Positions 4,175-42,155 of a DNA stretch of 64,000 nt are shown one piece after another. Origin of the DNA: Candidatus Peregrinibacteria bacterium (GTDB lineage: Bacteria; Patescibacteriota; Gracilibacteria; UBA1369; JACRIC01). The notes below the pieces were generated by a model. That model did no database searches. It was given only the letters and a program-made list of their open reading frames with translations, and was not told where the DNA came from. Where the stretch lies: the NCBI GenBank assembly GCA_016188705.1, contig JACPHH010000028.1:1-64000 (forward strand), in the 5' to 3' direction. The first letter of the stretch is position 1. Each line of letters opens with the position of its first letter. The translations under genes were made by a program, and so were the position numbers.

Positions 4175-7100
4175 CTACAAATGTTTCTTTTTAGGCTTGC
4201 TTCCAAGCCGTTTCACGTTCTCTCGAAGCTCTGAAAACCAATTTACGCCCAAATCCTTGCTTTTAATTTTCAACTTGCTTCCGCTAATAATCCACTTGCT
4301 GTTATACTCAAGCATGTTAAAAATGTGTTCAGGCTTCATTTTGTCCGACATCGTCATCACAATTTGCCGCTGATCGGGATCGTGAATATTTTCAGCCTTA
4401 ATATTTGTAAGAAAAGCCTTTTTCGCCAAAATTTTCACTTCCAACACCCTGAAAAGATTACGCACTTCTCGCGGCATTTGTCCATAATCTTCCACGAGTT
4501 CGCCGGACAATTCATCAAGATATTCTTTATTATCCGCGGAAGCAAGCCGTTGATACACATTAATTTTCTCCTTCGTGTTAACGACATAATAATCAGGAAT
4601 AAAACAAGTAAGAGGAAGTTCAATCGACACGTCCGCGATTTCTTCAGTTTCCGCCCGCTTCCCTGCTTTCAAATCCTCAACGGCCTTATTGAGCATGCGC
4701 ATAAAATGACTCACTCCAACCACGTTAATGGCGCCATGCTGATTAACTCCCAAAATATCGCCTGCTCCGCGAATTTCAAGATCCTTCATGGCAATTTGAA
4801 AACCTGATCCCAATTCAGAAGCCTCAACAATGGCGCGAAGGCGTTTTTTAGCATCAAGAGGAAGTTTTTGCTGATGATAAAGAAAATAAGCATAAGCTTG
4901 CGTTCGACTTCGACCCACGCGACCTCTCAATTGATAAAGCTGCGCGAGTCCAAATCGTTCAGCGTTATTTACAATCAAAGTATTGGCATTTGGAAGATCA
5001 ATTCCATTTTCAATAATCGTGGAACTCACAAGAACATCATATTTACCATCTTTAAAATTAATAATAGCCTGTTCCAATTCGGAATTAGAAAGCTTTCCGT
5101 GAGCGACAATAAATTTTGCTTCAGGGATAAGAGTAGACAGGCGTTCCATGACGCCATCAATGGTTTGCACCCGATTATGAAGAAAATAAACCTGACCCTT
5201 TCGTGCGATTTCACGTAAAATCACGTCGCGCACAAGCTCATTTGAATACCTTCGAACCTCGGTAATAACGGGAAGCCTGCCCGGAGGCGGCGTGGTGATA
5301 GTGGTAATGTCGCGAATTTTATTAAGCGCGATATTCAGTGTTCTTGGAATCGGCGTCGCGGTAAGAGTCATGATATCTACTTCTTTTCGAAGATGTTTAA
5401 GGGTTTCTTTCTGCTTCACCCCAAACCGCTGCTCTTCATCAATAATAACAAGACCAAGGTCTTTAAATTTAATATCGCTTTGAAGGAGTCGATGCGTTCC
5501 AATAATAATATCGACCTCGCCTCGTTCCAAACGACATAAAATATCTTTTTGTTCTTTTTTACTTTTAAAGCGCGAAAGCATTTCCACCCTGACATGAAAA
5601 TCATTCATTCTTTTTGTAAAAGAATGATAGTGCTGATCCGCCAAAATAGTAATAGGTGAAATAAGCGCGACCTGTTTGCCGTTTTGAACCGCCTTAAAAC
5701 TTGCCCTCATGGCCACTTCCGTTTTTCCAAATCCAACGTCTCCACAAATAAGCCTATCCATTGGCTTAGCTTTTTCCATGTCGGCCTTAACGTCAAGAAT
5801 GGCTTTCACTTGACCGGGAGTCTCTTCGTAAGGAAAAGTTTTTTCAAATTTTTCCTGGTCAGGGACGTCTTGTTTAAAAGCAAATCCTTTCGCTTGTTGC
5901 CGACCGGCGTACAATTCCAAAAGCTCTTGAGCGATTTTTTCCGTTTCTTTGCGAACTTTATTCGTAACAGTAGCCCATTCAGCCGAACCAAGCCGCGTTA
6001 ATTTTGGAGCGCCTTCCGACGCGCCTATATACTTATTAACTTTATCAGCCTGATCAATTGGAACAAAAAGCTTATCATTTTCCGCGTAGCCGATTTTTAA
6101 ATATTCCCGCGTTACGTTATCAACGGTTCGTTTCTCCAAGCCCTGATACATGCCAATACCATGGTCTGAATGAACCACGTAATCGTTTACGCGAAGACTT
6201 GTAAGAAAATCGAGATACACTTTTTGTGAAGACTGGGCTCGTTTGCGCTCCTTAAAACTCATAATCTCCTTATCCGTCATGACAAGAATCTTCTCGTGCG
6301 GATTTTGAAAGGCATAAGGATACGTATCTTCTTTATCGATTTCTAAAAGAAAAATTCCATCTTTCTCTTGCTGGGACGCCATTACATGAAATGGAATATT
6401 TTTTTCATCAAAAATCGCCTTCATTTCATTAAAGTTTTTCGTAAAAAAAAGAATTTTCCAATTCGTCTGTTGCTTCTCGCGAAAATCATTCAAAAGATCA
6501 TGCAAAGAATAATACCGAAGAACAGAAAGATAATGAAGGTTTTCGTGGCGATCGCCTTCTTCAAAAAATGACGTAAAGCTTAAGGAATGAAATTGCTCTT
6601 TTCTTTGCTTAAACACGGTGTCAAAAAGCTCAGAAAACTCATCAATGGCCTCAATTTCATCATCAATAACAAGCGTTTCTTTTGGTAAATAATCCATAAG
6701 ACAACTACGAGAAAAATCACCATTCACGGGATATATTTCTAAATGAGTCAATTCCGTAAGGTGCGACTGTGTTGTTTTATCAATTAACATCATTTTACCA
6801 AGTTGATCAAAGTCAGCCTCAATCACCACGGGACTCTCCATGTTCACGGGAAAAATCGACAAAACTCCTCCTTGCCGAAAATACTTTCCTTTATCTAAAA
6901 CCATGTCTTCTGAAACCTCATATCCACGATCAATAAGTTGTTCAAAAAGATCCATAATCGGCATATTATCACCCTTTTTAAGAGTAATAACCCTTTGAAT
7001 AATTTCATCATAAAGAGGAACTGTTTGAAAAAGGGAAGTATAGGAAAAAACAATAATAACCCGATCGCTATTTTGAAGAAGAGAAAGTGTTTCCAAAAGC

Positions 7101-7411
7101 CTCATTTGATTTATTTTTTCCTTTTCTTTATTCCCCTCTTGATTTAAGTCAAGCTCCAGGCTGTAAACAGGAATATCTGTCCACATATGAAGAGAATGAA
7201 TAACATTTTCTTGTTCTGAAAAATTATTTACTCCCCAAAAAATCTTTTTTATTCCTTTGTCGCGCCGAAGAATATCGGAAATAATAAAAACTTTCGCGGA
7301 AAAATTTGAAACGCCGGAAAGGCTGATATTTTTAAATGCTTGAAAAAAAGAAAAAACTTTCAAATTATACTCATCCCCAAAAAGCGCGATAAGGTTTTTT
7401 AAAGCTAGCAA
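4175..7411 (-). CDS. mfd: Transcription-repair coupling factor Mfd
   Basis: CarD-like domain (DYVVHSDHGIGMYQGLEKR), SF2 helicase motifs (GDVGFGKTEVAMRA, DEEQRFGV, RGRVGRS), TRCF C-terminus. Confidence 0.97.
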   Translation of the reverse strand: MLALKNLIALFGDEYNLKVFSFFQAFKNISLSGVSNFSAKVFIISDILRRDKGIKKIFWGVNNFSEQENVIHSLHMWTDIPVYSLELDLNQEGNKEKEKINQMRLLETLSLLQNSDRVIIVFSYTSLFQTVPLYDEIIQRVITLKKGDNMPIMDLFEQLIDRGYEVSEDMVLDKGKYFRQGGVLSIFPVNMESPVVIEADFDQLGKMMLIDKTTQSHLTELTHLEIYPVNGDFSRSCLMDYLPKETLVIDDEIEAIDEFSELFDTVFKQRKEQFHSLSFTSFFEEGDRHENLHYLSVLRYYSLHDLLNDFREKQQTNWKILFFTKNFNEMKAIFDEKNIPFHVMASQQEKDGIFLLEIDKEDTYPYAFQNPHEKILVMTDKEIMSFKERKRAQSSQKVYLDFLTSLRVNDYVVHSDHGIGMYQGLEKRTVDNVTREYLKIGYAENDKLFVPIDQADKVNKYIGASEGAPKLTRLGSAEWATVTNKVRKETEKIAQELLELYAGRQQAKGFAFKQDVPDQEKFEKTFPYEETPGQVKAILDVKADMEKAKPMDRLICGDVGFGKTEVAMRASFKAVQNGKQVALISPITILADQHYHSFTKRMNDFHVRVEMLSRFKSKKEQKDILCRLERGEVDIIIGTHRLLQSDIKFKDLGLVIIDEEQRFGVKQKETLKHLRKEVDIMTLTATPIPRTLNIALNKIRDITTITTPPPGRLPVITEVRRYSNELVRDVILREIARKGQVYFLHNRVQTIDGVMERLSTLIPEAKFIVAHGKLSNSELEQAIINFKDGKYDVLVSSTIIENGIDLPNANTLIVNNAERFGLAQLYQLRGRVGRSRTQAYAYFLYHQQKLPLDAKKRLRAIVEASELGSGFQIAMKDLEIRGAGDILGVNQHGAINVVGVSHFMRMLNKAVEDLKAGKRAETEEIADVSIELPLTCFIPDYYVVNTKEKINVYQRLASADNKEYLDELSGELVEDYGQMPREVRNLFRVLEVKILAKKAFLTNIKAENIHDPDQRQIVMTMSDKMKPEHIFNMLEYNSKWIISGSKLKIKSKDLGVNWFSELRENVKRLGSKPKKKHL

Positions 7412-7561
7412 AGAATATAAAAAAAATAATAAATAAATTTATTAAGACTTCTTGGGGTTTTCAGGCTTATTCATATTTAATCTCGATTACAACACCTAAA
7501 AACTATTGAAAAAGGTGATTTTATAAAAAACAAAATACTAAAAATTGTTTATATAAAATAA

Positions 7562-8680
7562 TTACATCTTAAGAGGCATAATAATATGGATGTAATCATC
7601 TTTTCCGAGCGGCTTAAGAAGCGCTGGTGATAATTTGGAATCAATTTCAAAAACCACCTCATGGCTTCCAATATTAGTTAAAATATCAAGAAGAAATTGA
7701 AAATTAAGAGCTATTTGATTATCTTCTCCTTGTATTTGAGTAGAAATTTCTGTTGTTTCCTCTCCAACTTGGGTTTCTCCCGTGGATAAAATAAGTTTTT
7801 GCTCATTTGTAAGGCTTATTTTAATATTATTACTTTCTTCTAATACAAACAGACTTACCTTTTTTACGCCAAGAATAAAATCTTGAGTTAAAAGAGTGCA
7901 TTTTGTTTTACTGGTTTGGGGAATAATTTTTTCATAATCAGGAAAACTCCCTTCAATAAGTCGTGAAACAAGTTCAATATTATCCACTTTAAAAAGTATT
8001 TGATTTTTTGAAACCTGTACTTCAATGGGAATATTACTAGATAAACTCATAAGAATTTTCCCAAGTTCTTGAATGGTTTTTGCTGGAATAATGCACTGAA
8101 TATTATTTTTCACTACTTCTTGCAAAGTAATTATTTTTTTAGAAAGTCGATAGCTGTCAGTGGCGACAAGAGTAAGTTTATTTTTATCAACATGAAAAAG
8201 AATACCCGCGAGAGTTGGTCTGGAAAGATTTACTGAGGCGGCAAAAACAACTTGATTAATGCCATTTATAAATTCTTCTACTGGAAGATTTACAATATTC
8301 GGCTGTTCGATTTTAGGAATAAGAGGAAATTCATCTGCTGAAATACCTTTTATTTTTGTTCTTGAAGACTTTGATTTAATAGCAAGAGTAAGACCTTCTT
8401 CGAGTTTAAATTCTATTTTTTCATCTTGAAGAAGGTGTATATAATTCGTAAAAAGTTTAGCGGGGAGTGTAATACTTCCTTCGTTTTGAATATCAGCTTG
8501 AATCCAAAAATGAATGGCAATTTCAAGATTTGTGGCGGAAAAATAAAGTCTTTTTCCTTCTGCTTTTAAAAGAATATTATTTAAAACAGGTAAGGTGTTA
8601 TGAAGACTTACTGCTTTATTTACAATATTTAAAGCAAATATCAGGCTTTTTTGATCTACTGAGAGTTTCATAAAATTCAA
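7562..8680 (-). CDS. dnaN: DNA polymerase III subunit beta (sliding clamp)
   Basis: 372 aa; MKLSVDQKSLIFALNIVNKAVS..., VATDSYRLS, C-terminal IIMPLKM. Confidence 0.95.
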   Translation of the reverse strand: MNFMKLSVDQKSLIFALNIVNKAVSLHNTLPVLNNILLKAEGKRLYFSATNLEIAIHFWIQADIQNEGSITLPAKLFTNYIHLLQDEKIEFKLEEGLTLAIKSKSSRTKIKGISADEFPLIPKIEQPNIVNLPVEEFINGINQVVFAASVNLSRPTLAGILFHVDKNKLTLVATDSYRLSKKIITLQEVVKNNIQCIIPAKTIQELGKILMSLSSNIPIEVQVSKNQILFKVDNIELVSRLIEGSFPDYEKIIPQTSKTKCTLLTQDFILGVKKVSLFVLEESNNIKISLTNEQKLILSTGETQVGEETTEISTQIQGEDNQIALNFQFLLDILTNIGSHEVVFEIDSKLSPALLKPLGKDDYIHIIMPLKM

Positions 8681-8689
8681 TAATACCCA

Positions 8690-9280
8690 CTCATTATAAT
8701 CAAAAAAAAGTTTCTGACAAACTATTTCAAAACCTTACGACATAATTTTTTTAAAATATATAAAATAGTAGTAAATAGACAGGGCTTGATAAATTTTTTT
8801 ATTATTAGATATTTATATTTAGAGTATTAAAAAGCTTATTAAAAATATAAAAGAAAAAAGTTGAATATTTTTTTAATTCAAAAATAATGGCAATAAAGTA
8901 AAAGTTTTAGACAGTGTGTTAATAAAAACTTAACTCTAATAAAATAATATTTTTCTTTATTTTAAAAATAAAAAAAACATCATTATATAGAGAAAAATAA
9001 AGGAATAAAAAAATAAGTCATGGCGAAAAAAATTCTTCTGTCTAAAACTTGTGTATAACTTGTTAAAAAATATACGCGTATAAACTTTTTAACAAAGATT
9101 TTTTTTCAAACCATTTACCAAGGAAAAACTCAATTTTTTGCCGTAAAAATGGGAAAAATAAAACATTGAGATATTAAAAAATAAAAAACAAAAATAAAAA
9201 AGTGAAAAAATACTTTTCTACAAATAAAGGAAACTTTCCAACTAAATAAAAAAAGTAAGGCGATGAGTAAATGCTAAAAA
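8690..9280. other. Possible replication origin region upstream of dnaN
   Basis: Very AT-rich intergenic region; TTATACACA (reverse strand) at 9050-9058; 12-bp palindrome TATACGCGTATA at 9071-9082; 11-bp inverted repeat GTTTTAGACAG/CTGTCTAAAAC at 8904/9038. Confidence 0.4.
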
Positions 9281-9282
9281 AA

Positions 9283-11250
9283 TTACACAGTTACTATAAC
9301 AGGAAGTATAAGAGGTGTTTTCTCTATTTTTTTATGAACAAACCTGTCCAGCCTGCTTCGAATATAATTTTTTACATCACCTCTTTTTGCGCGAGCGTCT
9401 CGGCTAATAATATCCTGATAAGCCTTTTTAGCCTCTTCCGTAACGGCTCCAATAAGTTCCTGAGATTCTTTCATGTAAATAAATCCGCGGGAAATGACAT
9501 CGGGAATGCTTTTTAATTTTTTTGAATGACTGTCGACATTAAAAATAACAACAAGAACTCCGTTTCCAGCCATGATTTGTCGTTCCATAAGCACTTGGGC
9601 GCCAACATTTCCAACGCCAAGCCCGTCAACCATAATATAATTCGTATCAACTTTTTCTTCTAAAACTCTAAGTTCGTGATTCACGATTTCTAAAATAGTG
9701 CCGTTATTCGCGATAATAGTATGTTTTTCGCCATAACCAATGCTTTGCGCCAATTGAGCATGAGCCGTTCTCATATAAAGCTCTCCGTGAATTGGAACCA
9801 TGTATTTTGGCCGAACAAGGTTCATCATAAGCTTAAGATCTTCTTGGCATCCGTGGCCAGAAGCATGAACGTCCATGACGGCATTAGAAATTGTTTTCAC
9901 TCCCATTTGGCAGAGGTTGTTGATCACTGTTGTAATAGCTCGTTCATTTCCAATAATCGGCGATGATGAAAAAACAACCGTATCGCCTTTTTTCAAAATA
10001 ATCTGAGCGTGATCTTTCATGGCCATGCGGGAAAGAGCGGAAAGCGCCTCTCCTTGGCTGCCCGTGGTAAGAATAACCGCGTCATCGCCGCCAACCATTT
10101 TTGGCGAAGCTTTGCGGATATCTTTCACGGTTCCTGGCGGAACTTTGATATAGCCGAGTTCCATGGCGATGCCAACGTTATCCACAATGCTTCGGCCGCT
10201 CAAATATACTTTTCGATCGTATTGAATGGCGGCCTGTATGATTTGTTGAATGCGTCCGAGAGAAGATGAAAAAACTGCGATAATAATGCGTCCTGGAATA
10301 TTTTTAATCATATCGCTCAAAGTTATTCCAACGGTTTTTTCCGAAACGGTATAGCCCGGCTTAGTAGCGTTAGTGCTGTCGGAAAAAAGAGCGGTAACAT
10401 TTTGAACTCCAAGTCTCGCCATTTTCGCAAAATCCGCGGGCTTGGAATCAGGAGGCGTAAAATCAAACTTGAAATCGCCGGTATGAGCAATGGTTCCTGC
10501 TGGAGTTCTTACGATAACTCCTGCGGCATCTGGAATGCTATGATTGACTCGAAAAAGTTCCACTTGAAAATAGCCAAGCTGAATCACGTCATCATAATCA
10601 ATGGTGTGGAGCCTGGCGGTCCGGTCGAGGTCAAATTCTTCAAGTCGTTTTCGCACAAGCCCCATAGTAAGCCTTGTTCCGTAAAATTCCGGCCCGCCAA
10701 GCTTATTATAGAGGTAAGGAATTCCTCCAATGTGGTCGAGGTGTCCATGTGTAATAAAAACCCCTCGAATTTTATGAGTTTTTCCTTGAAGATAGTTTGT
10801 GTCGGGAATGACGTAATCAACTCCCAGCATGTCTTCTTCAGGAAATTGAAACCCCATGTCAATAATGATAATGTCACTCGACTCTTTATGGCCGGCTGGA
10901 ATATATTCCAAAACCATCATGTTTTTTCCTACTTCTTCAAGTCCTCCGAGCGGAATAATACGAAAAGTGCCATGGCCTTTTGGAGGAAGCGTTTGCGGAG
11001 CCACTCTGTGCGTGATTTTTTTTAAAAAATGAGTTGGCTTCTTTTCTGGAACGCCTTGAGTGCTTATTTGAGCTTCATGCCGCGCTTCTTCGCGAACATG
11101 TCCAAAATGTCGCCCCTTAGGACGATTTTGATCAGGAACACTTGTGTCATCGGGATCTTTTTTTTCTTGCGGAGCCTGTTCTGGCACCACTTTTCCTTGA
11201 GGAAGCAAGGTCTTTTTGAGCCATTGGCTCAAGTTGTCATCTTTTTCCAT
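9283..11250 (-). CDS. rnj: Ribonuclease J
   Basis: FITHGHLDHIGGIPYL, HTGDFKFD, MDVHASGHGCQEDLKLM; charged N-terminal extension; ORF extends to 11304, MEKDDN start preferred. Confidence 0.95.
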   Translation of the reverse strand: MEKDDNLSQWLKKTLLPQGKVVPEQAPQEKKDPDDTSVPDQNRPKGRHFGHVREEARHEAQISTQGVPEKKPTHFLKKITHRVAPQTLPPKGHGTFRIIPLGGLEEVGKNMMVLEYIPAGHKESSDIIIIDMGFQFPEEDMLGVDYVIPDTNYLQGKTHKIRGVFITHGHLDHIGGIPYLYNKLGGPEFYGTRLTMGLVRKRLEEFDLDRTARLHTIDYDDVIQLGYFQVELFRVNHSIPDAAGVIVRTPAGTIAHTGDFKFDFTPPDSKPADFAKMARLGVQNVTALFSDSTNATKPGYTVSEKTVGITLSDMIKNIPGRIIIAVFSSSLGRIQQIIQAAIQYDRKVYLSGRSIVDNVGIAMELGYIKVPPGTVKDIRKASPKMVGGDDAVILTTGSQGEALSALSRMAMKDHAQIILKKGDTVVFSSSPIIGNERAITTVINNLCQMGVKTISNAVMDVHASGHGCQEDLKLMMNLVRPKYMVPIHGELYMRTAHAQLAQSIGYGEKHTIIANNGTILEIVNHELRVLEEKVDTNYIMVDGLGVGNVGAQVLMERQIMAGNGVLVVIFNVDSHSKKLKSIPDVISRGFIYMKESQELIGAVTEEAKKAYQDIISRDARAKRGDVKNYIRSRLDRFVHKKIEKTPLILPVIVTV

Positions 11251-31012: not shown

Positions 31013-32140
31013 CTACCGAGTATAAAGCCTTCGAATTTCTTCCGCCATGATTTTCCATGAAAAATCTTTCACGCGAATTTTCCCGCGTTCTTTTAATGTT
31101 GAAAGGAGTTTTTCATTTTCCAGCATATAATGAATAGTATTGGCAATATCACGATAGTTATCCGGATTAAAAAAACGCGCGTTTCCATCTCCTGCAATTT
31201 CCGGCAAGCAGGAACGATTTGAAGAGGCGACTGGGGTGCCACAGGCAAAAGCTTCAAGAATATTGAGACCAAAGCCTTCATAAAAAGAAGGCTGAACGTA
31301 AATTGCGGCAGCATTGTAAAGCTGTACGAGGTTTTTTTCGTTGACGAGCCCGGGAAATCGAACAAAATTTTCAAGAGAAAGTTCGCGTACAGTGGCTTTG
31401 ACTTCGGGATAAGCCGAATCTTCTCGTCCGGTAAGAACGAGTAAAATGTCGTGATGATAGCTTGTTCGAAGGCTGTGAAAAGCCCGAATGAGATTGACAA
31501 GATTTTTATGATTTCTCCAAACTCCTGCGTAGAAAAGAAAAGGCTTATTGAGGTCATATTTTGATCGCGCTTCTTGCGCGTCTTTTTCAGGAAGCATTCG
31601 AAATTCCTCTCCAACTCCTTCGTAAATAATGCGTATTTTGCTTTCAGGAAGCCGAAAAAGTTTCAGAAGGTCGAGTTTGGTATTTTCTGAAACCGCGATA
31701 ATGGAGCGCGCTTTTTTTACAATGGAACTGAGAGTGAGATTATAGCCCCAGCGATGCCAGGGTTTGGTCATTTTCTTGCCGGGATAAAAGGAAAGAATGA
31801 GGTCGTGGATGGTGACAACGCAAGGTTTTTTATAAAAAATAGGCGCGTTAAAATGAGTAAAATGCATAAGATCGAGTTTCGCGTCATGAAGAAGTCGCAA
31901 AAATTTCGTCTGTTCACTGAAAGAATAATGATGGGCATTCACGTGAATTTTTGTAAAATACGGCGGTACAGCCTGAAAAAGATCATATTCGGGATCATTG
32001 AAAAAAAGAACATATTGATTTTGTTCCTCCTTCGGAAGGGTTTTTTCTATAATGCCGAGGTGCCGAACAAGCTCAAAAACATAGCGCCCGATACCCGTAA
32101 ACGAGCTTGAATACATCCGACAATCAATTCCAATGCGCAT
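31013..32140 (-). CDS. Glycosyltransferase family 4 (GT-B)
   Basis: MRIGIDCRMYSSSFTGIGRYVFEL..., VQPSFYEGFGLNILEAFACGTPVASSNRSCLPEIAGD. Confidence 0.93.
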   Translation of the reverse strand: MRIGIDCRMYSSSFTGIGRYVFELVRHLGIIEKTLPKEEQNQYVLFFNDPEYDLFQAVPPYFTKIHVNAHHYSFSEQTKFLRLLHDAKLDLMHFTHFNAPIFYKKPCVVTIHDLILSFYPGKKMTKPWHRWGYNLTLSSIVKKARSIIAVSENTKLDLLKLFRLPESKIRIIYEGVGEEFRMLPEKDAQEARSKYDLNKPFLFYAGVWRNHKNLVNLIRAFHSLRTSYHHDILLVLTGREDSAYPEVKATVRELSLENFVRFPGLVNEKNLVQLYNAAAIYVQPSFYEGFGLNILEAFACGTPVASSNRSCLPEIAGDGNARFFNPDNYRDIANTIHYMLENEKLLSTLKERGKIRVKDFSWKIMAEEIRRLYTR

Positions 32141-32261
32141 AAAGTGAGAAAAAGACGTAAGCGTAACAAAGTTTTTCTATAGTTCTTTTATTTAAAACGC
32201 ATCCATACTACAGAGATTTTCCTAGAATATGTTTAGAATATGTATTGATGGATAAATTTTA

Positions 32262-32360
32262 CAAATCATATGCCCTTTTTGATCCTGCCGAGTATTCGAG
32301 CGACAATCTCCCTCCTGCCAGCGATATGTGCTTTTATTCAAAGTAATGTGCGTATAATCT
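32262..32360. repeat. Degenerate family-2 repeat copy
   Basis: tttttgatcctgccgagtattcgagcgac...gccagcgatatgtgctttt resembles the 51154-51261 copy. Confidence 0.65.
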
Positions 32361-32475
32361 TATTTGTGAACACTGCTTAGGCATTATAAAGGAGAACTTG
32401 CGAAGAATAAAAGAGTCCGTTATCATATTTCCGCTTTCAAAACCGCTTAATCAAGTGGAAAAATAAAAATACCGT

Positions 32476-32552
32476 GGGACGGTAGCTCAGTTGGTTAGAG
32501 CGCATGCCTGTCACGCATGAGGTCGCGGGTTCAAATCCCGTCCGTCCCGCCA
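32476..32552 (+). tRNA. tRNA-Asp (GTC)
   Basis: GGGACGGTAGCTCAGTTGGTTAGAGCGCATGCCTGTCACGCATGAGGTCGCGGGTTCAAATCCCGTCCGTCCCGCCA; cloverleaf-compatible, encoded CCA. Confidence 0.97.
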
Positions 32553-32634
32553 GAGAAAAATATTGCAAATCAAAAAAAAATACGAACCACTTTTTCTGTT
32601 TTATTTACAGAATTTTATTTAAAAAACTGGCATC

Positions 32635-33750
32635 TCAAATATCATAAGCTTTCATGTTACTCAATCTCGGAGTTACTTCTTGATATTTTTTTTGACTTCC
32701 AAGTCCTGTCCAATGGGGATTAGCCAACAAAGCCACTTCTGGAGTGATGTGTTTTGCAACCTCAAGCAATGATGTAATGTTAACAGGAAGTCGTTGGTCC
32801 GCCTGTGCTCTATCTTTAAAACTCAAAAGTGGAATTTTTGTAGAGAAATCAATTTGCCGTTCAGGAGAGAGTCTCCCTTGAGATAATTCTAAAAACAATT
32901 GGATGGCTTCATAATAATCCTTCAATTCAGTAAAAGCAGAAGCATTACCTTCTAAAAAATTTGCTGAAGCATGGCAGTATAATTGCAGATCCAATAATGC
33001 AAAACCGAGGAGCCTGTGGCATAGAGATATCTGTTCTATTTTGTCGGATGCTTGAATAAAACTCATGAAGCAATTTTGAACGCGAGAAAATATTGTTCGA
33101 TAATCAGGAATCGATGACTGATTTGGACGTGAGGTCAGATTTCTACGCTCAAAAATTTCCTGTGCCGAATTCAAACTAGTAAGAAATCTTTCATAAGAAT
33201 TGAGAGTCTTATAAATCTTTCTCTCCCGCTGAGTGGGGCGTGGAGGAGCTTGTGGCCGTTCTGGAAGAGCCACTGCTTGATGCACGGTATTCCAACATTG
33301 TGCTTGAGTATCATCAACAACTCTACAAATCTCAATTATTGAGTCAACTATTCTTCTTAAGCATTGTGCGACACTCACAATATACAACTCTTCTCCACTT
33401 GGAGATGATGGGGCAGATATAGCGTCTGCACCATCTCGATGATATGTGCCAGAATACCCGGATCTGTAAAATTCCATTACTGGATCATGCTCTAAAAAAT
33501 GTAAAACTTGCGTCAAAAGACTTTCTGCGGCATCTGCAGAAGGCAACTGGAAAGAAAATATTTGAGTTTTCATTTTTACGAACTGCTCAGTAAAGTCTGC
33601 AGCTTTTTTTGATGCGCCATTATCTAAACCAAAAGGAGGCTCATTGTTCTGAATAAAGTTACCTAAAAAATTAATTACAAAAGTTAGATCACTTACGATA
33701 CTATCTTTTGAGGGCATGATTTCTATCATCTTTATTACTGATATTTCCAT
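32635..33750 (-). CDS. Orphan helical protein, unknown function
   Basis: 371-aa ORF, divergent from the ATP-grasp gene; no recognised domain. Confidence 0.65.
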   Translation of the reverse strand: MEISVIKMIEIMPSKDSIVSDLTFVINFLGNFIQNNEPPFGLDNGASKKAADFTEQFVKMKTQIFSFQLPSADAAESLLTQVLHFLEHDPVMEFYRSGYSGTYHRDGADAISAPSSPSGEELYIVSVAQCLRRIVDSIIEICRVVDDTQAQCWNTVHQAVALPERPQAPPRPTQRERKIYKTLNSYERFLTSLNSAQEIFERRNLTSRPNQSSIPDYRTIFSRVQNCFMSFIQASDKIEQISLCHRLLGFALLDLQLYCHASANFLEGNASAFTELKDYYEAIQLFLELSQGRLSPERQIDFSTKIPLLSFKDRAQADQRLPVNITSLLEVAKHITPEVALLANPHWTGLGSQKKYQEVTPRLSNMKAYDI

Positions 33751-33941
33751 ATATAAATATTAAAAAAATACGAACAACATACAAACGACACACATTTCCC
33801 TACTCCAGGAAGTGAATATAAATGATTATGAAAAAAAGTCAAGCAAGGTTGGACATTTTTCAAGCCTTGTGAGCAATTACGGGATTTGCGCTTGCAAAAA
33901 AGCCATCATCCTGTATGGTAATAATCCTATAAATAACTACA

Positions 33942-35228
33942 ATGGCTATAGAAAATAGGCCAATCGAGACAATAGGTGATGTTGGAACCATTTCAGAACT
34001 ATATGGTAAAGATTTAGATCAGGGTGATGAGCTGCTACTTCCATATCCTACTTCAGATCCAGCGCGAGATAGCGATCCAAATCAAGATAAATTCTACATT
34101 CAAGATGGGAGTACTGCAGACGTAAGAGTTTCTAATGGCACAAGAAGAGTATTAGAACCTGGCAGACACGCTGCTCTTTTAGGTAGAGGCATTAAAGGTC
34201 TGGTTACTCAACCAATACCAGACGTATTGATTGCCTGCCTTAAGGACCAATTCGATTTTGATCCAGAAACAGTGGAGGTTTTACCACCTGAGACATATTG
34301 CGACGTGATCAATGCCGAACAAAGAAGAGTATTGACACTTTTTCCATACGATCGCATCCACAAAGACCGTTGCGTGATTGATCCAGAGAAACACTATAGA
34401 TTGTTGAGTAAAGAGTGGTTAATAACCGGTGAATTCCCTAGCCCTGAATCTCATATAATGAATTTTGATAATGATCTTGAAAGTGTGATAACAGGAATAA
34501 GAATGTTGCTTAAAACCCCTCGTCTGGTAAAAACATTACATGGACTTTCTGGTGATGGACAAAAAATTGCTCGTGAACCCAAAGACTTATCAGCAGCTTT
34601 GGATTTCATAGAAGCTTATGCTCGTTATCAGCCATTAGAAAAAATAATTTTACAGGATCTAATACCCCATACAATTAATCACGGTATTCAGTTTTATTTA
34701 AGTAAAAGCGGTACAATAAGGCTTATGGGAGTGGCAAATCAAGTAGTTGATCGAGAAGGACACTATATGGGTGGTTTGGTGAATTATGACGAGAATATTC
34801 CAGCAGCCTATACTCCAATCATTCAACGTGCGGCCTCTTTATGTTTTCAGGCAGGTTATTTTGGCATTGTTGGCCTCGATATTATTACTGATCAACGTGA
34901 TGACGAGCCAAAAGTCATAGATGCAAATCTTCGATTGACTGGTATGACTCCCGCGTATCTTCTCAAGCCTAAACTAACAAGTACTGGTAATAGTCGAGCC
35001 CTCCTCTCAACAGAATTTATATCTCATCGGCCATTAGACGAGACTCTTGCTGCTTGTAGAACAGCAATGAATTATAATATATTAGCCGTGCTTTCAGCTT
35101 TGCAAGTCGATGGAAGTCGAACCAAAGTGTACGGTGTAATTGCTGGTAAAGATGAGGGGTCACTTGCTAAAAATCGTAAAAGAATTGAAAATTGTGGTCT
35201 TGTTATCCCTGGTAAATGGGAAAATTGA
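33942..35228 (+). CDS. ATP-grasp family ligase (peptide/amino-acid ligase-like)
   Basis: VKTLHGLSGDGQKIA (lysine plus glycine loop), KIILQDLIP, GLDIITDQRDDEPKVIDANLRLTGMTPA (Mg-binding D..DxNxRxTG). Confidence 0.8.
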   Translation: MAIENRPIETIGDVGTISELYGKDLDQGDELLLPYPTSDPARDSDPNQDKFYIQDGSTADVRVSNGTRRVLEPGRHAALLGRGIKGLVTQPIPDVLIACLKDQFDFDPETVEVLPPETYCDVINAEQRRVLTLFPYDRIHKDRCVIDPEKHYRLLSKEWLITGEFPSPESHIMNFDNDLESVITGIRMLLKTPRLVKTLHGLSGDGQKIAREPKDLSAALDFIEAYARYQPLEKIILQDLIPHTINHGIQFYLSKSGTIRLMGVANQVVDREGHYMGGLVNYDENIPAAYTPIIQRAASLCFQAGYFGIVGLDIITDQRDDEPKVIDANLRLTGMTPAYLLKPKLTSTGNSRALLSTEFISHRPLDETLAACRTAMNYNILAVLSALQVDGSRTKVYGVIAGKDEGSLAKNRKRIENCGLVIPGKWEN

Positions 35229-35280
35229 TCACACAATCTCGATTCGCACTTCGCTCCATAAAGTAATTTTTCATAAGACT

Positions 35281-35421
35281 TCAACGCTTTGCCTCTATCT
35301 TTTTCATTTGCTTGTACTTCTTCATTAAATCCATTTGTTCTTTATTCGCGGCGCGGATGGCTTTTTTGATAATTCGTTTTTTATCTTTTTCCGGCAAGGT
35401 AAAAAATTGAGAGGAATTCAT
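35281..35421 (-). CDS. 46-aa basic small protein
   Basis: Manual translation MNSSQFFTLPEKDKKRIIKKAIRAANKEQMDLMKKYKQMKKIEAKR*; below the ORF-track size cutoff. Confidence 0.55.
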   Translation of the reverse strand: MNSSQFFTLPEKDKKRIIKKAIRAANKEQMDLMKKYKQMKKIEAKR

Positions 35422-35614
35422 GATTTTTTAGTTAGTCATTTTTGAGGCGCCTGTATACAAAATTCCATAATATTTTATATAAAACAACAGACTTTAAATC
35501 AACAATTTCGTTTATTGAATTAAGTAAATCATCCAAAAAATACGTTCTAACATTGTCTACTGCGCCCCGACAATTCGATAAAACGGTAATAAATTCAAAA
35601 TTTGAGATACAAAA

Positions 35615-36805
35615 TTATTCGCATAAGTGTCTTGATGTAATCTCATCCGAAGTAGTACAAGCGATAATACCAGATGCGGGTTGACTTTGATGCGAAAATT
35701 GGTAGGTAAAAGGTATAATTTGTAAGCCTGATTTTCCTAGTCGTGTATGAGGAGTATTCAATTTTACTTCTAGTCTTGAGTCATCTTTAAAAAGATCTGA
35801 CATATTAGAAGGCAATTCCAAATTGTTTACGCCTCCCAGTAAACGTAAAACGGTACTCTCTGCAGAGTCTAATCTGATATGAGATAAAGCAATTGTCAGT
35901 ATTTCAACCAGTGTTGAAAGGCTAACTGGTGACGATTGTGCAAAAGTATCAAAACATCCCTCTGCGGTTGGAGGATGTAAAGCGAAACTATAAACATCGC
36001 TTGATGGCCGTTGACAACAGTTTGGACAATTACAAAGAGTATTGTGCGCAAAAGGATTTCTATGAGTCGTATTTGTAATAGCGTTATTATTTAGGCGCCC
36101 TACAACTCGAATTATTCTGCCTTGGTTTGTAACAAATTCACCGTCTAATGCGATATCTTGTGCATTTGGAATAGGATGTTGGGTTCCAAGTCGATTCTTA
36201 ACAATGTTTCGTGTTTTCTTAAAAAGGCTCGGTGCTTTATTATCATGAGATGAAGCTGATAATGTTAAATTACTCTGTAGTGGCTTGCGCCATGTAAAAC
36301 GTCGCATGAGATGAATAGCTTCTGAGGGTTGTAAAAGATGACGAATCAATTCTGTTACTGCCAATAATGAATCAGATCCATGTACAAAAGAGTTACTCCA
36401 TGGCGTGTAAAATAATGCCGTATTACAGCTCGCAGATGTTTGACCATCTGTTATTACATCGCATACAAGGCTTGGAATATTCTCCCATACATCATCATGA
36501 CATGGTTTGCTGGTAGAATCAGGCATGTTGGCATCGCAAAAACATAAATCCGTATTAGCTCTTATAGGAACACTAATTTGTCTAAAAATTGCATCTATTT
36601 CTTCTTGTACAAGTTGATGGATTCTTCGTATTTCTGCTAAATCGTTAGCGTCTTTTAAGAATCCTTTTGAGTCTAAATTTTCTAATTGTTCTAATAATTT
36701 ATGCGTGCGTTCTCGAAATCCACGACAATTCTCCAAAATTAAAGGAGCAAAAGCTGGCGACATAAATATTGGCAGATCGACATGAAAAGATGAAGGTAAT
36801 AGCAT
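35615..36805 (-). CDS. Orphan protein with cysteine cluster (CNCPNCC)
   Basis: 396-aa ORF, NTLCNCPNCCQR plus further Cys; no recognised family. Confidence 0.65.
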   Translation of the reverse strand: MLLPSSFHVDLPIFMSPAFAPLILENCRGFRERTHKLLEQLENLDSKGFLKDANDLAEIRRIHQLVQEEIDAIFRQISVPIRANTDLCFCDANMPDSTSKPCHDDVWENIPSLVCDVITDGQTSASCNTALFYTPWSNSFVHGSDSLLAVTELIRHLLQPSEAIHLMRRFTWRKPLQSNLTLSASSHDNKAPSLFKKTRNIVKNRLGTQHPIPNAQDIALDGEFVTNQGRIIRVVGRLNNNAITNTTHRNPFAHNTLCNCPNCCQRPSSDVYSFALHPPTAEGCFDTFAQSSPVSLSTLVEILTIALSHIRLDSAESTVLRLLGGVNNLELPSNMSDLFKDDSRLEVKLNTPHTRLGKSGLQIIPFTYQFSHQSQPASGIIACTTSDEITSRHLCE

Positions 36806-37680: not shown

Positions 37681-37935
37681 ATGCCAACCATTTCTTTCAA
37701 AGCAGACGATAATTTTAAAAACAAGCTCGAACTTTTAGCCCAAAAAAAAGGGATAAATACGTCCGCCTACATTAAACTCCTGTTAACGAAAGAATTAAAA
37801 ATCGAACTCGTTGAAATCACTGAAAATGGCCTCACTGTGGCCGAAGAGCTTGAAATTCTCGCTTCTGATAAAAACGATAAAATCTTTGGCCCATTTACAA
37901 CTGCAAAATCAACAATAAAAGCTTTGAAAAAATAA
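37681..37935 (+). CDS. Antitoxin (RelB/DinJ-like ribbon-helix-helix)
   Basis: MPTISFKADDNFKNKLELLAQKKGINTSAYIKLLL; directly upstream of a RelE-like ORF. Confidence 0.7.
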   Translation: MPTISFKADDNFKNKLELLAQKKGINTSAYIKLLLTKELKIELVEITENGLTVAEELEILASDKNDKIFGPFTTAKSTIKALKK

Positions 37936-37943
37936 GGAAACCT

Positions 37944-38213
37944 TTGCAAAATATGCGAATTATTTTCACCGATGGATTTAAAAAAAAGTACAAACTCTTG
38001 CAACCAAAAATCCAAAAACAATTTGAAAAACGACTCGGACTTTTTATAAAAAATCAAAATCATCCGCTCCTGAAAGTCCATCCATTGAAAGGAAATCTCG
38101 TAGGATGCAGAGCTTTTTCCGTTACCGGCGATTTTCGCGTCATCTATCGTCTTCTCGATCAAAACAGTGCAAAATTGATCGATATCGGCACTCATTGTCA
38201 GGTTTATAAATAA
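37944..38213 (+). CDS. RelE/YafQ-family toxin
   Basis: HPLLKVHPLKGNLVGCRAFSVTGDFRVIYRLLDQNSAKLIDIGTHCQVYK. Confidence 0.85.
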   Translation: MQNMRIIFTDGFKKKYKLLQPKIQKQFEKRLGLFIKNQNHPLLKVHPLKGNLVGCRAFSVTGDFRVIYRLLDQNSAKLIDIGTHCQVYK

Positions 38214-38328: not shown

Positions 38329-39180
38329 TTGAATAATATGAAAAATATTATAGTTCCTAAGCCTAAAAGCGACAGTTTAATTCATCAATTAGAGGTTTTT
38401 TATAAAACTTTCAAAAATATTGCTGCTGACGAAAATGTGATATTTGATTTGTCGGAAATAAATTGGATTCATCCGCTAATCATTCTGCCGATTGCTTCTC
38501 ATATTTATGCTACCAATAGTGATTATCAGACTCGTTCAAATAATGTTATTAATCGCTATTTAAGCATTATTCATTTCCCGAAAGGGGTGAATACTTTTGA
38601 AAGTTGTCAGAAATTAAAAAGTTTTATTCCAATAACCCTGATTAAAGAAAATAATCCGATCGAAAGAGATAAAATTATCGATTGTTTTTTAAATTTAATT
38701 TACAGAACAACTAATAATATTCCAAAAGTAAACAAAAGCGCCATTTTTTACCCTATAACTGAATTGGTTACGAATATTGCCGAACATAGTAAAAAAGATT
38801 ACGGTTTTATTTTTGGACAAATTTACAGTAAAAAGAAACATTTGGATATTTGCATTTTAGACAAAGGAAGAGGTTTGGTGCAATCTTATAAACAAGAAAA
38901 AAATATCAATCTTACAGATAAAGAAGCAATCGAAAAAGCACTATCCGGAGATTCAACCAAAAGCCTAGATCGAGGATACGGCATCAGGACATCAAAAAAG
39001 ACCGTCTGTGAAGGATTTAATGGTGACTTTTCAATAATTTCAGGAGAAGAATGTTTTATTGCCAATAAAACAAAAAATCAAATTTTTACTTTACCAGGCT
39101 TTTATTGGCAAGGAGTGATTATGGCTTATAGAATTCCTTGCCCTGAAAGAGCAGTTGATATTTATCAATATTTAGAATAA
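38329..39180 (+). CDS. STAS-like plus HATPase (GHKL) protein
   Basis: NVIFDLSEINWIHPL; N-box ELVTNIAEHSKKDYG; ILDKGRGL; RGYGIRTSKK. Confidence 0.8.
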   Translation: MNNMKNIIVPKPKSDSLIHQLEVFYKTFKNIAADENVIFDLSEINWIHPLIILPIASHIYATNSDYQTRSNNVINRYLSIIHFPKGVNTFESCQKLKSFIPITLIKENNPIERDKIIDCFLNLIYRTTNNIPKVNKSAIFYPITELVTNIAEHSKKDYGFIFGQIYSKKKHLDICILDKGRGLVQSYKQEKNINLTDKEAIEKALSGDSTKSLDRGYGIRTSKKTVCEGFNGDFSIISGEECFIANKTKNQIFTLPGFYWQGVIMAYRIPCPERAVDIYQYLE

Positions 39181-39207
39181 ATTACAATGCCTTAACCTAA
39201 AATATTT

Positions 39208-39522
39208 ATGATAATAAAATTAATTAATATTTTCTCCACGACTACGATTTCCTCAAGAGAATCAGTAAAAGAATTAATAAAAAAACTGAAGAAAGATGAT
39301 GAAATTATTTTAGATTTTAGTAAAATCGAATTTATTTCTCGTTCCGTCGCTCATGAATTATTAAAGTTAAAAGAAAAGCATTCTAACATGCGCTTCTCTA
39401 ATATGGCCGAAGAGGTGTCGAAGATGGTCAGATTGGTAGCCGCAAATATTGCTTACCCTCAAAAAAACACAGAAGAGTTTAAACCTAAAAAAACCACGTT
39501 ATCTTCTGTGTTAAGACGTTAA
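39208..39522 (+). CDS. STAS-like (DUF4325-type) protein
   Basis: EIILDFSKIEFISRSVAHELLKLKEKH; downstream of the HATPase gene. Confidence 0.75.
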   Translation: MIIKLINIFSTTTISSRESVKELIKKLKKDDEIILDFSKIEFISRSVAHELLKLKEKHSNMRFSNMAEEVSKMVRLVAANIAYPQKNTEEFKPKKTTLSSVLRR

Positions 39523-39714: not shown

Positions 39715-39794
39715 TATGAATTTTAAAATAATACTTGTATTTTTTGTACAATTTGTTATAATTAGACTGTTTGTACAATTATTATAATTTTTTT

Positions 39795-40040
39795 ATGCTC
39801 TATTATAATACTTCAGAAGCCAGAAAGCAGTTAAATGACATTATAAACAGAGTAAAATATCAAAAAGTAATTATTTCCATCGGGCGGCGAGGAAAAGCAG
39901 AAGTGCTGATTATACCTAAAATTGATACTGATGAATCGTTGCCTATATCTGAAATAAATACTGCTTCCCAAAGCTTTGATTTTTTAGCAGAAGAACCTGA
40001 AATGTATTCAGTAAATGATCTAAAAAAACGTTATGTATAA
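39795..40040 (+). CDS. Phd/YefM-family antitoxin
   Basis: MLYYNTSEARKQLNDIINRVKYQKVIISIGRRGKAEVLII; ORF starts at 39771. Confidence 0.8.
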   Translation: MLYYNTSEARKQLNDIINRVKYQKVIISIGRRGKAEVLIIPKIDTDESLPISEINTASQSFDFLAEEPEMYSVNDLKKRYV

Positions 40041-40386
40041 ATTTGGAACACTTGTTCTTGTGCCATTCCCTTTTACGGACCTGACGTCGGCGAAATTGAG
40101 ACCTGCGTTGATTGTATCGAAAACAAACCAACAGAGCGAAGATATCATGGTAGTTTTTATTACCACTAAAGCGCGTAAAAAACTCCAGAGTGGTCATTTT
40201 CTTTTAAAAAATATCGATCCATGCTTTGAACAAACCGGCCTGAAAGTAAGTTCTTTGTTTCGTTTCGATAAAATAGCAACGATCAATAAAAAACTTATTC
40301 TTGGAGAGTTGGGAACGGTTCATAAAACAACACTGAGTAAAATGCGATCACATTTTTTCTCTGTTTTTGGCTTTGAACATGCTTGA
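40033..40386 (+). CDS. PemK/MazF-family toxin
   Basis: GTLVLVPFPFTDLTSAKLRPALIVS; overlaps the antitoxin by 8 bp. Confidence 0.9.
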   Translation: MYKFGTLVLVPFPFTDLTSAKLRPALIVSKTNQQSEDIMVVFITTKARKKLQSGHFLLKNIDPCFEQTGLKVSSLFRFDKIATINKKLILGELGTVHKTTLSKMRSHFFSVFGFEHA

Positions 40387-40439: not shown

Positions 40440-42155
40440 TTACGTCGTAATGGCTCCCTTGCTTGCCGAGCCGACACAGTCGTAGTATTTGGCGAGTACT
40501 CCGCGCTTGTATTTTTTTTCGGGCATTTTCAATTTTTCTCGTCGCTGCTTTAAGGCGCCTTCGGAAACATGCAAAGTGATGGTATTTTCAAAAGGACGAA
40601 TTTCAATCAAATCCCCTTCTTCCACTAAAGCAATCGTTCCTCCGACTTGAGCTTCCGGAGCCACGTGCCCAACCATAATTCCATGAGTCCCTCCTGAAAA
40701 ACGACCATCGGTAATAAGTCCAACATTTTTTCCTAAATCAGCTCCAACGAGCGCGGAAGTAACGGAAAGCATTTCTCGCATACCCGGTCCTCCTTTCGGC
40801 CCTTCGTAGCGAATCACCATAATATCACCCTTTTGAATTTTTCCATCCAAAATCGCATCCAAAGCGTCTTCTTCGCGCTCAAAAACTCGCGCCGGTCCTG
40901 TAATACATTTAATTTCTTTCCCGCTTAATTTCATCACGCAACCTTCCGAAGCGAGATTGCCACGGAGAATTCTTAGATGATGACCAGCCTTGGAAAGCGG
41001 CTTTGAGATAGGAAAAAACACTTTTTGATTAGTCGGAATCTGGCCAGCGTCGATAAGATTTTCTCGTACCGTTTTACCAGTCACTGTCACGCAGTCGCCA
41101 TGAATAAAACCAGCATCCATAAGCTCTTTCATGACCATTGGAATACCGCCGATACGATCAAGATCAAGCATCACGTAATCACCAAATGGTTTCATGTTGG
41201 CCAAAAGTGGGACTTTTTCGGAAATTTTTTGAAAATCCGTTAATGTGAAATCAATATTCGCCTCGTGAGCCACGGCGAGAAGGTGAAGCACCGCGTTTGT
41301 TGAGCCGCCAAGCGCCATAACAACGGAAACAGCATTCAAAAAAGCGTCGCGAGTCATAATATTTCGTGGCGAAATACGCTGTCGAATAAGCTCCAAAATC
41401 GCCAACGATGCCCGTTCTACTTCTTCAAGTTTTTGAGGACTTAAACGGTTATTATGATCGACGGCCTGTGTGGAAGCCGTCCTTGGAAGGCTTATCCCAA
41501 GCGCTTCAAAAGCTGAAGACATTGTATTGGCGGTATACATTCCTCCGCAAGCTCCACTTCCCGGGCACGAATGGCATTCAATGTGGTGAAAATCTTTCTG
41601 ATTCATTTCTCCGCGAGAATATGCCCCGATAGCCTCAAAAGTACTCACGATCGTAAGGTCTCTATTTTTATAACGACCTGGCAAAATCGTTCCTCCATAA
41701 ATAAAAATACTCGGAACATTGGTCCGCGCGAGTGGCATTACCGCTCCGGGGATGCTTTTATCGCAGCCACCAAGCGTAATTGCTCCGTCGCAATAGTACG
41801 CGTCAATCATCATTTCAATGCCGTCTGCGATGAGATCGCGGCTTACGAGTGAATATTTCATCCCCGCGGTTCCCATCGTTATGCCGTCACTCACAATGGG
41901 CGTTCCAAAAATAAGAGGCATGCTCCCCTTTTCCATAAGCTGGGTTTTGAGCCGATGTCCAAGTTTTTCAAGGTGGTTATTGCAGGGAGTCGCATTCGTA
42001 TAAGGGCTTGCTACGGCGATAAGTGGTTTATCAAAATCAGCTTCTTTTGTAAAATCTACAGCCCGTAACATAGCTCGAGCCGCGGCACGTTTGATCCAAT
42101 TTTTCTGTCCGCGCATTCCCGTCAGTTCTCCGCTGCGTATTTTAAGAGTTTCCAT
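40440..42155 (-). CDS. ilvD: Dihydroxy-acid dehydratase
   Basis: [53 protein letters not shown]. Confidence 0.97.

Follow-up and report, generated by a model that had tools for sequence, protein, structure and literature searches.

An LdmS-like ATP-grasp protein, probably an amino-acid ligase, on the variable flank of tRNA-Asp in a Candidatus Peregrinibacteria genome

Introduction

The closest described counterparts of the gene considered here are two ATP-grasp ligases: LdmS of Staphylococcus, an L-aspartate--L-methionine ligase (NCBIfam NF047900), and BesA, an L-propargylglycine--L-glutamate ligase that forms a dipeptide (Protein Data Bank (PDB) 8yi6). The gene, which we call B, encodes a 428-amino-acid protein and lies in a 64,000-nucleotide stretch (positions 1 to 64,000 of contig JACPHH010000028.1, assembly GCA_016188705.1; hereafter the window) from a Candidatus Peregrinibacteria bacterium whose genome measures 1.37 Mb at 94.65% completeness. 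It is flanked by two further genes, A and C, with which it had been grouped in an initial annotation made from the sequence of the window. Genome counts for the order of the host refer to a set of 89. The sizes, positions and orientations of the three reading frames are exactly as that annotation gave them:

32635-33750, minus strand: A, 371-amino-acid reading frame, an orphan, apparently helical
33942-35228, plus strand: B, 428-amino-acid reading frame, ATP-grasp carboxylate-amine ligase of the LdmS/pre-ATP-grasp type, predicted dipeptide (amino-acid) ligase
35615-36805, minus strand: C, 396-amino-acid reading frame, double-hotdog protein resembling dehydratases and hydratases, with His142 and Glu301 as candidate catalytic pair

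Among solved chains, the nearest to B that was found is that of 7r8p/7r8q, of which 7r8p is presumably the LdmS structure, in line with the profile agreement. The ATP-grasp domain of LdmS aligns at residues 189-348 of B, and the two proteins share an N-x-x-x-Q motif in the first kinase-like strand, a D-x-N metal motif and then a G-x-T motif. The likeness is confined to this domain, the N-terminal half being unaligned at the sequence level when B alone is used. A protein on plasmid pP742401 of the cyanobacterium Gloeothece citriformis (WP_012599657.1, annotated 'hypothetical protein') aligns over 91% of B, so that the N-terminal pre-ATP-grasp part is covered too, and belongs to the nearest clade; it is adjoined by an isoaspartyl peptidase (WP_012599656.1), a partner without counterpart in the host. 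BesA is very distant: it matches weakly at B 251-335 (E 0.19, or 9.6e-4 with a family profile), and there is no sign here of its dedicated amino-acid pathway.

Results

Family and catalytic positions of B

Against Pfam ATP-grasp_3 (PF02655) B scores 31.7 bits (E 1.9e-7; cut-off 23.2), which places it in the superfamily. Its sole clear structural relative in the PDB is 7r8p, found at E 2.3e-10 with B alone, at 1.3e-19 with a three-row profile of B and cyanobacterial sequences and at 2.1e-25 with a ten-row family profile. Both matches confirm the ATP-grasp identity first assigned to the 428-amino-acid protein. That it is not a recognizable housekeeping ligase has also held: candidate assignments to the purine, biotin and D-Ala ligases were rejected, all such matches lying far under their cut-offs, and the best NCBIfam model is LdmS (E 2.2e-17; 62.9 bits, cut-off 475), which is the top-scoring family for most of the relatives tested as well.

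The ATP-grasp superfamily is marked by a linker lysine, a lysine in strand 2, an aspartate in kinase-like strand 4 and an E/DxN motif (PMC4431377). All four can be placed in B by alignment with relatives rather than from a structure, as K157 (the presumed linker residue), K197, D313 and D327-x-N329, and its glycine loop reads LSGDGQKI. The R2K/CDC123 clade, which has neither the linker lysine nor the glycine-loop motif, was rejected for B because K157 and LSGDGQKI are present. B is almost certainly an ATP-grasp enzyme, and a complete one.

Relatives and origin of B

B-type genes occur in 13 of the order genomes, where the likeness to B is limited to the ATP-grasp domain (best match 29%, E 2.5e-12). 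Longer alignments were obtained with two cyanobacterial plasmid proteins, the one from G. citriformis (29% identity over 91% of B, E 2e-51) and one from Kovacikia minuta (34% over 75%, E 1e-48); the latter ligase appears truncated and is adjoined by a fragmentary peptidase. In a maximum-likelihood tree the Peribacterial sequences stood outside a clade (100/100) of B and these two proteins; several of the other branches were long, and where they join is unsure. A scan of genome contigs, sensitive to close relatives only, found just two relatives in Peribacteria. B was probably acquired laterally, and its sequence likely reflects transfer, either between cyanobacteria and the host lineage or out of a third source common to both; since the full-sensitivity search of cyanobacteria covered plasmids only, a closer relative may exist outside the set searched. 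The LdmS-like amino-acid ligases are a little-studied group, and B extends it by a divergent branch that was apparently acquired laterally.

Gene neighbours across the ligase family

The genes adjoining B-type ligases were surveyed at about 50 loci in Patescibacteria and on plasmids, and the figures given here are raw counts. An isoaspartyl peptidase (Asparaginase_2) stands directly beside the ligase at four loci in two phyla, namely in genomes G029 and G343, in Gloeothece and, as a fragment, in Kovacikia. Other direct neighbours are an M20 peptidase (G052), a PepD-like peptidase (G030) and an AstE/AspA-like hydrolase (G004). A ligase adjoining a hydrolase of aspartyl or dipeptide amides suggests the making and recycling of a small amide. 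The four pairs with isoaspartyl peptidase (L041:11962-14455, L030:4162-6486, L114:4471-6990 and L042:9557-11041), two on cyanobacterial plasmids (one of them broken) and two in Patescibacteria, are candidates for a make-and-break pair acting on an aspartyl dipeptide. A limited literature search found no publication on an ATP-grasp enzyme paired with isoaspartyl peptidase, or on ATP-grasp enzymes in Peribacteria.

At seven further Patescibacterial loci, four from Peribacteria and three from another lineage, the direct neighbour is a LysA-like pyridoxal-phosphate decarboxylase, which reaches 160.7 bits against TIGR01048 (cut-off 297.9). Locus L025 has the decarboxylase at 6307-7632 followed by two ligases at 7622-8950 and 9262-10503, an arrangement repeated in L026, L027 and L028, while L089, L090 and L091 have the decarboxylase with a single ligase. 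The decarboxylase and its one or two ligases possibly form a biosynthetic pair or triplet. Recurrent neighbours of these kinds (isoaspartyl peptidase, M20/PepD, LysA-like decarboxylase) offer a direct handle for finding the products of LdmS-like ligases.

Proposed reaction of B

On balance, the locus is best explained if B is a stand-alone LdmS-like amino-acid ligase in a variable slot, with C and A separate from it. B itself is probably a carboxylate-amine ligase acting on amino acids, as the initial annotation had suggested in noting that such ligases can join amino acids; the ATP-grasp group to which it belongs has named members that do so. According to the proposed mechanism, B would use ATP to phosphorylate the carboxylate of one amino acid and hold the acyl-phosphate between its ATP-grasp subdomains, where the amino group of another amino acid would attack it, yielding ADP, phosphate and what we infer to be a dipeptide. 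The best guess for the substrate is an aspartyl, possibly beta-aspartyl, compound, because the named member of the group is an aspartate-methionine ligase and the nearest cyanobacterial relatives adjoin isoaspartyl peptidase; aspartate as such is a tentative proposal that may well prove wrong.

Several points weigh against an amino-acid ligase of this kind. The LdmS match stays far below the equivalog cut-off, and among the relatives of B that were found LdmS alone has a known activity. ATP-grasp enzymes can also form thioesters, esters or phosphates. The window contains no recognized biosynthetic neighbour of B, and no Asparaginase_2 gene is present in the host genome at its 94.65% completeness, which leaves the peptidase/ligase pair incomplete there. 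Finally, most amide-forming ATP-grasps carry a conserved arginine in their first kinase-like strand (PMC4431377), and at this position B appears to have Asn246, as does the aligned 7r8p sequence, the strand being placed by alignment only.

It is unlikely that B instead attaches an amino acid to a peptide, nucleotide-sugar or cell-surface polymer in the manner of D-Ala ligases, RimK or cyanophycin synthetase. Such a larger product would fit a weak Pfam RimK match to B (E 7.1e-4), a Gemmobacter plasmid relative that lies near sugar-nucleotide and polysaccharide genes, and the glycosyltransferase found beyond tRNA-Asp in the window. However, the RimK matches are under the cut-off while LdmS scores highest for B and most relatives, and in the order the glycosyltransferase keeps its place beside the tRNA where B is absent.

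An extension of the amino-acid ligase reading, which we regard as distinctly improbable, is that B, like its relatives in cyanobacteria and Patescibacteria, does the synthesis in a make-and-break pair. Nitrogen or aspartate would be stored, without a polymer, as a beta-aspartyl (isoaspartyl) dipeptide that an adjacent isoaspartyl peptidase would reopen, and the host would have kept the ligase only. Slightly less probable still is that B, once acquired, has lost its function or is decaying and is retained by chance: the sporadic distribution of B-type genes, the position of B in a variable region and the apparently truncated Kovacikia relative with its peptidase fragment would suit this, yet the reading frame of B is full-length and free of stops, and every catalytic position has been kept at an identity of about 30% to its relatives.

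C is predicted to be a double-hotdog protein

FabZ/FabA, the dehydratase domains of polyketide synthases (PKS) and TesB-type thioesterases have two hotdog halves, with a histidine in the first central helix and an acid in the second. FabZ and PKS dehydratases act through a pair of histidine and aspartate or glutamate. An AlphaFold2 model of C, built from a five-row alignment of order members, had a mean predicted local distance difference test score (pLDDT) of 69.2, with core blocks mostly at 70-92, and displayed a repeated strand-helix pattern that corresponds to two consecutive hotdog halves. Foldseek gave 23 matches at E<=1e-3, each with a hotdog, among them acyl thioesterases, polyketide and fatty-acid dehydratases and multidomain synthases, and VIA-align returned Z values of up to 12.4 over 196 residues. 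The named hotdog enzymes align with C at Z 10-12 over about 200 residues, yet with 3-12% identity, and differ from it in that C has an extra helical N-terminus.

The histidine that begins the first central helix, His142, does not vary among the six members of the C family, and position 301 in the second central helix is always occupied by Glu or Asp; by range arithmetic only, His142 stands at the same offset as His959 of PpsC. On the strength of the model, C is very probably a double-hotdog protein, whereas the chances that it is an active dehydratase or hydratase seem evenly balanced. No Pfam match to a ketosynthase (PF00109) or an acyl-carrier protein (PF00550) was found in the host genome, 94.65% complete. 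Because the fold and the His/acid pair are dehydratase-like and neither of these partners was detected, C is probably a hydratase or dehydratase of coenzyme A or other thioesters, or a binding protein on the hotdog fold.

The family occurs in six order genomes and, in a sample of the phylum, in two of 380 genomes, the host and one other, both of the order. Its members are C itself (35615-36805 in the window), L020:7169-8200, L021:8246-9481, L022:987-1952, L023:7404-8489 and L038:6238-7275. C had first been described as an orphan with a CNCPNCC motif. The motif is there, although it is not a family feature, since only one of four aligned relatives has a comparable cysteine cluster (CECSDCC in G022); the orphan status has given way to relatives within the order and a double-hotdog fold. 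With C, a double-hotdog family specific to the order and dehydratase-like in its active site is present in a host for which neither a ketosynthase nor an acyl-carrier protein was detected.

A is an orphan

A was rightly called an orphan: it had no match in Pfam, NCBIfam, the PDB, plasmids or phages, and no relative at E<=1e-3 in the other order genomes, so that it is present in one of the 89. Weak matches elsewhere (E 0.009-0.15) were rejected, being located in ordinary-looking genes or broken frames. A single-sequence structure model was uninformative (pLDDT 37.6). That A is a real protein is suggested by its open frame of 371 codons and by a composition like that of its neighbours.

The three genes share a slot, not a pathway

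Lysine makes up 4.3% of A, 4.9% of B and 3.0% of C against a window median of 6.9%, and arginine exceeds lysine in each. The G+C fraction at third codon positions (GC3) is 0.27, 0.26 and 0.22, compared with 0.33-0.45 in most long neighbours, and, compared with the remainder of the window, codon usage shows a low correlation for B (0.80) and C (0.81) and a middling one for A (0.86). These values bear out the earlier remark that the trio is poorer in lysine than its surroundings, and codon usage agrees. The shared foreign origin that had been read from it does not follow from composition, because C is otherwise restricted to the same order while the nearest relatives of B are cyanobacterial plasmid genes, and the relatives of A, B and C tell different histories. 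A foreign origin of all three was rejected in view of the order-restricted distribution of C (6/89). A phage origin was searched for and found no support.

A and B are divergent and B and C convergent; directions of minus, plus and minus leave no operon. The initial annotation had proposed a biosynthetic, modification or peptide-tagging system, to be given up if homologues of the ligase never co-occurred with either neighbour, and this is what was found: outside the host, no genome of the order has B-type genes together with C or A, the host is the only genome with both B-type and C-type genes, and the trio does not form a conserved system. At four C-type loci read fully (G011, G022, G036 and G014) there was no ATP-grasp neighbour of the B kind. 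No precursor-like or co-inherited gene was found for protein tagging or for a ribosomally synthesized and post-translationally modified peptide (RiPP), nothing indicates protein tagging, and a peptide-tagging or RiPP locus was rejected since no other genome of the order has the ligase inherited together with A or C. It is therefore very unlikely that the three genes form one system, with the ligase tagging a peptide, C acting on that peptide by dehydration or another modification and A serving as carrier or substrate: their adjacency and common low lysine, high arginine and low GC3 would fit this, but are outweighed by the lack of an operon and of co-occurrence, an A without relatives and a double-hotdog, dehydratase-like C that is no evident partner for a ligase. 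Thus, the slot collected three accessory genes, and the ligase is to be studied alone; here, lying side by side and being alike in composition did not go with a common pathway.

The variable slot beside tRNA-Asp

On the far side of A lie two features that mark the edge of the slot:

31013-32140, minus strand: glycosyltransferase of GT4 type (Pfam Glycos_transf_1, E 1.3e-33), on the fixed side of the tRNA and outside the trio
32476-32552, plus strand: tRNA-Asp (GTC) (ARAGORN; Rfam RF00005, 75.3 bits), at the edge of the variable region

The same glycosyltransferase adjoins tRNA-Asp at 23 of 29 order loci inspected, and the small gene behind it is often the same too, while on the opposite flank of the tRNA the gene content changes between genomes, which places the trio in a variable slot. 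The glycosyltransferase/tRNA-Asp block (31013-32552 in the window; loci L136-L163) is conserved, and the other flank is a hot spot for accessory genes. A second copy of the tRNA-Asp 3' end, as would bound an island, was looked for and none was found in the window, which leaves integration at the tRNA without support. Two AT-rich near-repeats of 24 nucleotides, 83% alike, lie just beyond both ends of A (32567-32590 and 33755-33778); they were set aside as evidence, the window's core-match count being reached in 10 of 100 shuffles and possibly due to chance.

As far as ilvD at 40440, the variable flank beyond the trio holds short genes whose products look by eye like those of toxin-antitoxin and STAS/anti-sigma genes. 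Two adjacent genes at 38329-39522 are, again by eye, similar to a histidine-kinase-like ATPase of anti-sigma type, which has no Pfam match at 1e-3, and to a STAS-like protein. In the same slot, 37681-38213 and 39771-40386 hold two toxin-antitoxin-like pairs, the first gene of which (84 amino acids) is without Pfam match; by eye, they comprise a RelE/YafQ-like toxin and a Phd-like antitoxin with a MazF/PemK-like toxin.

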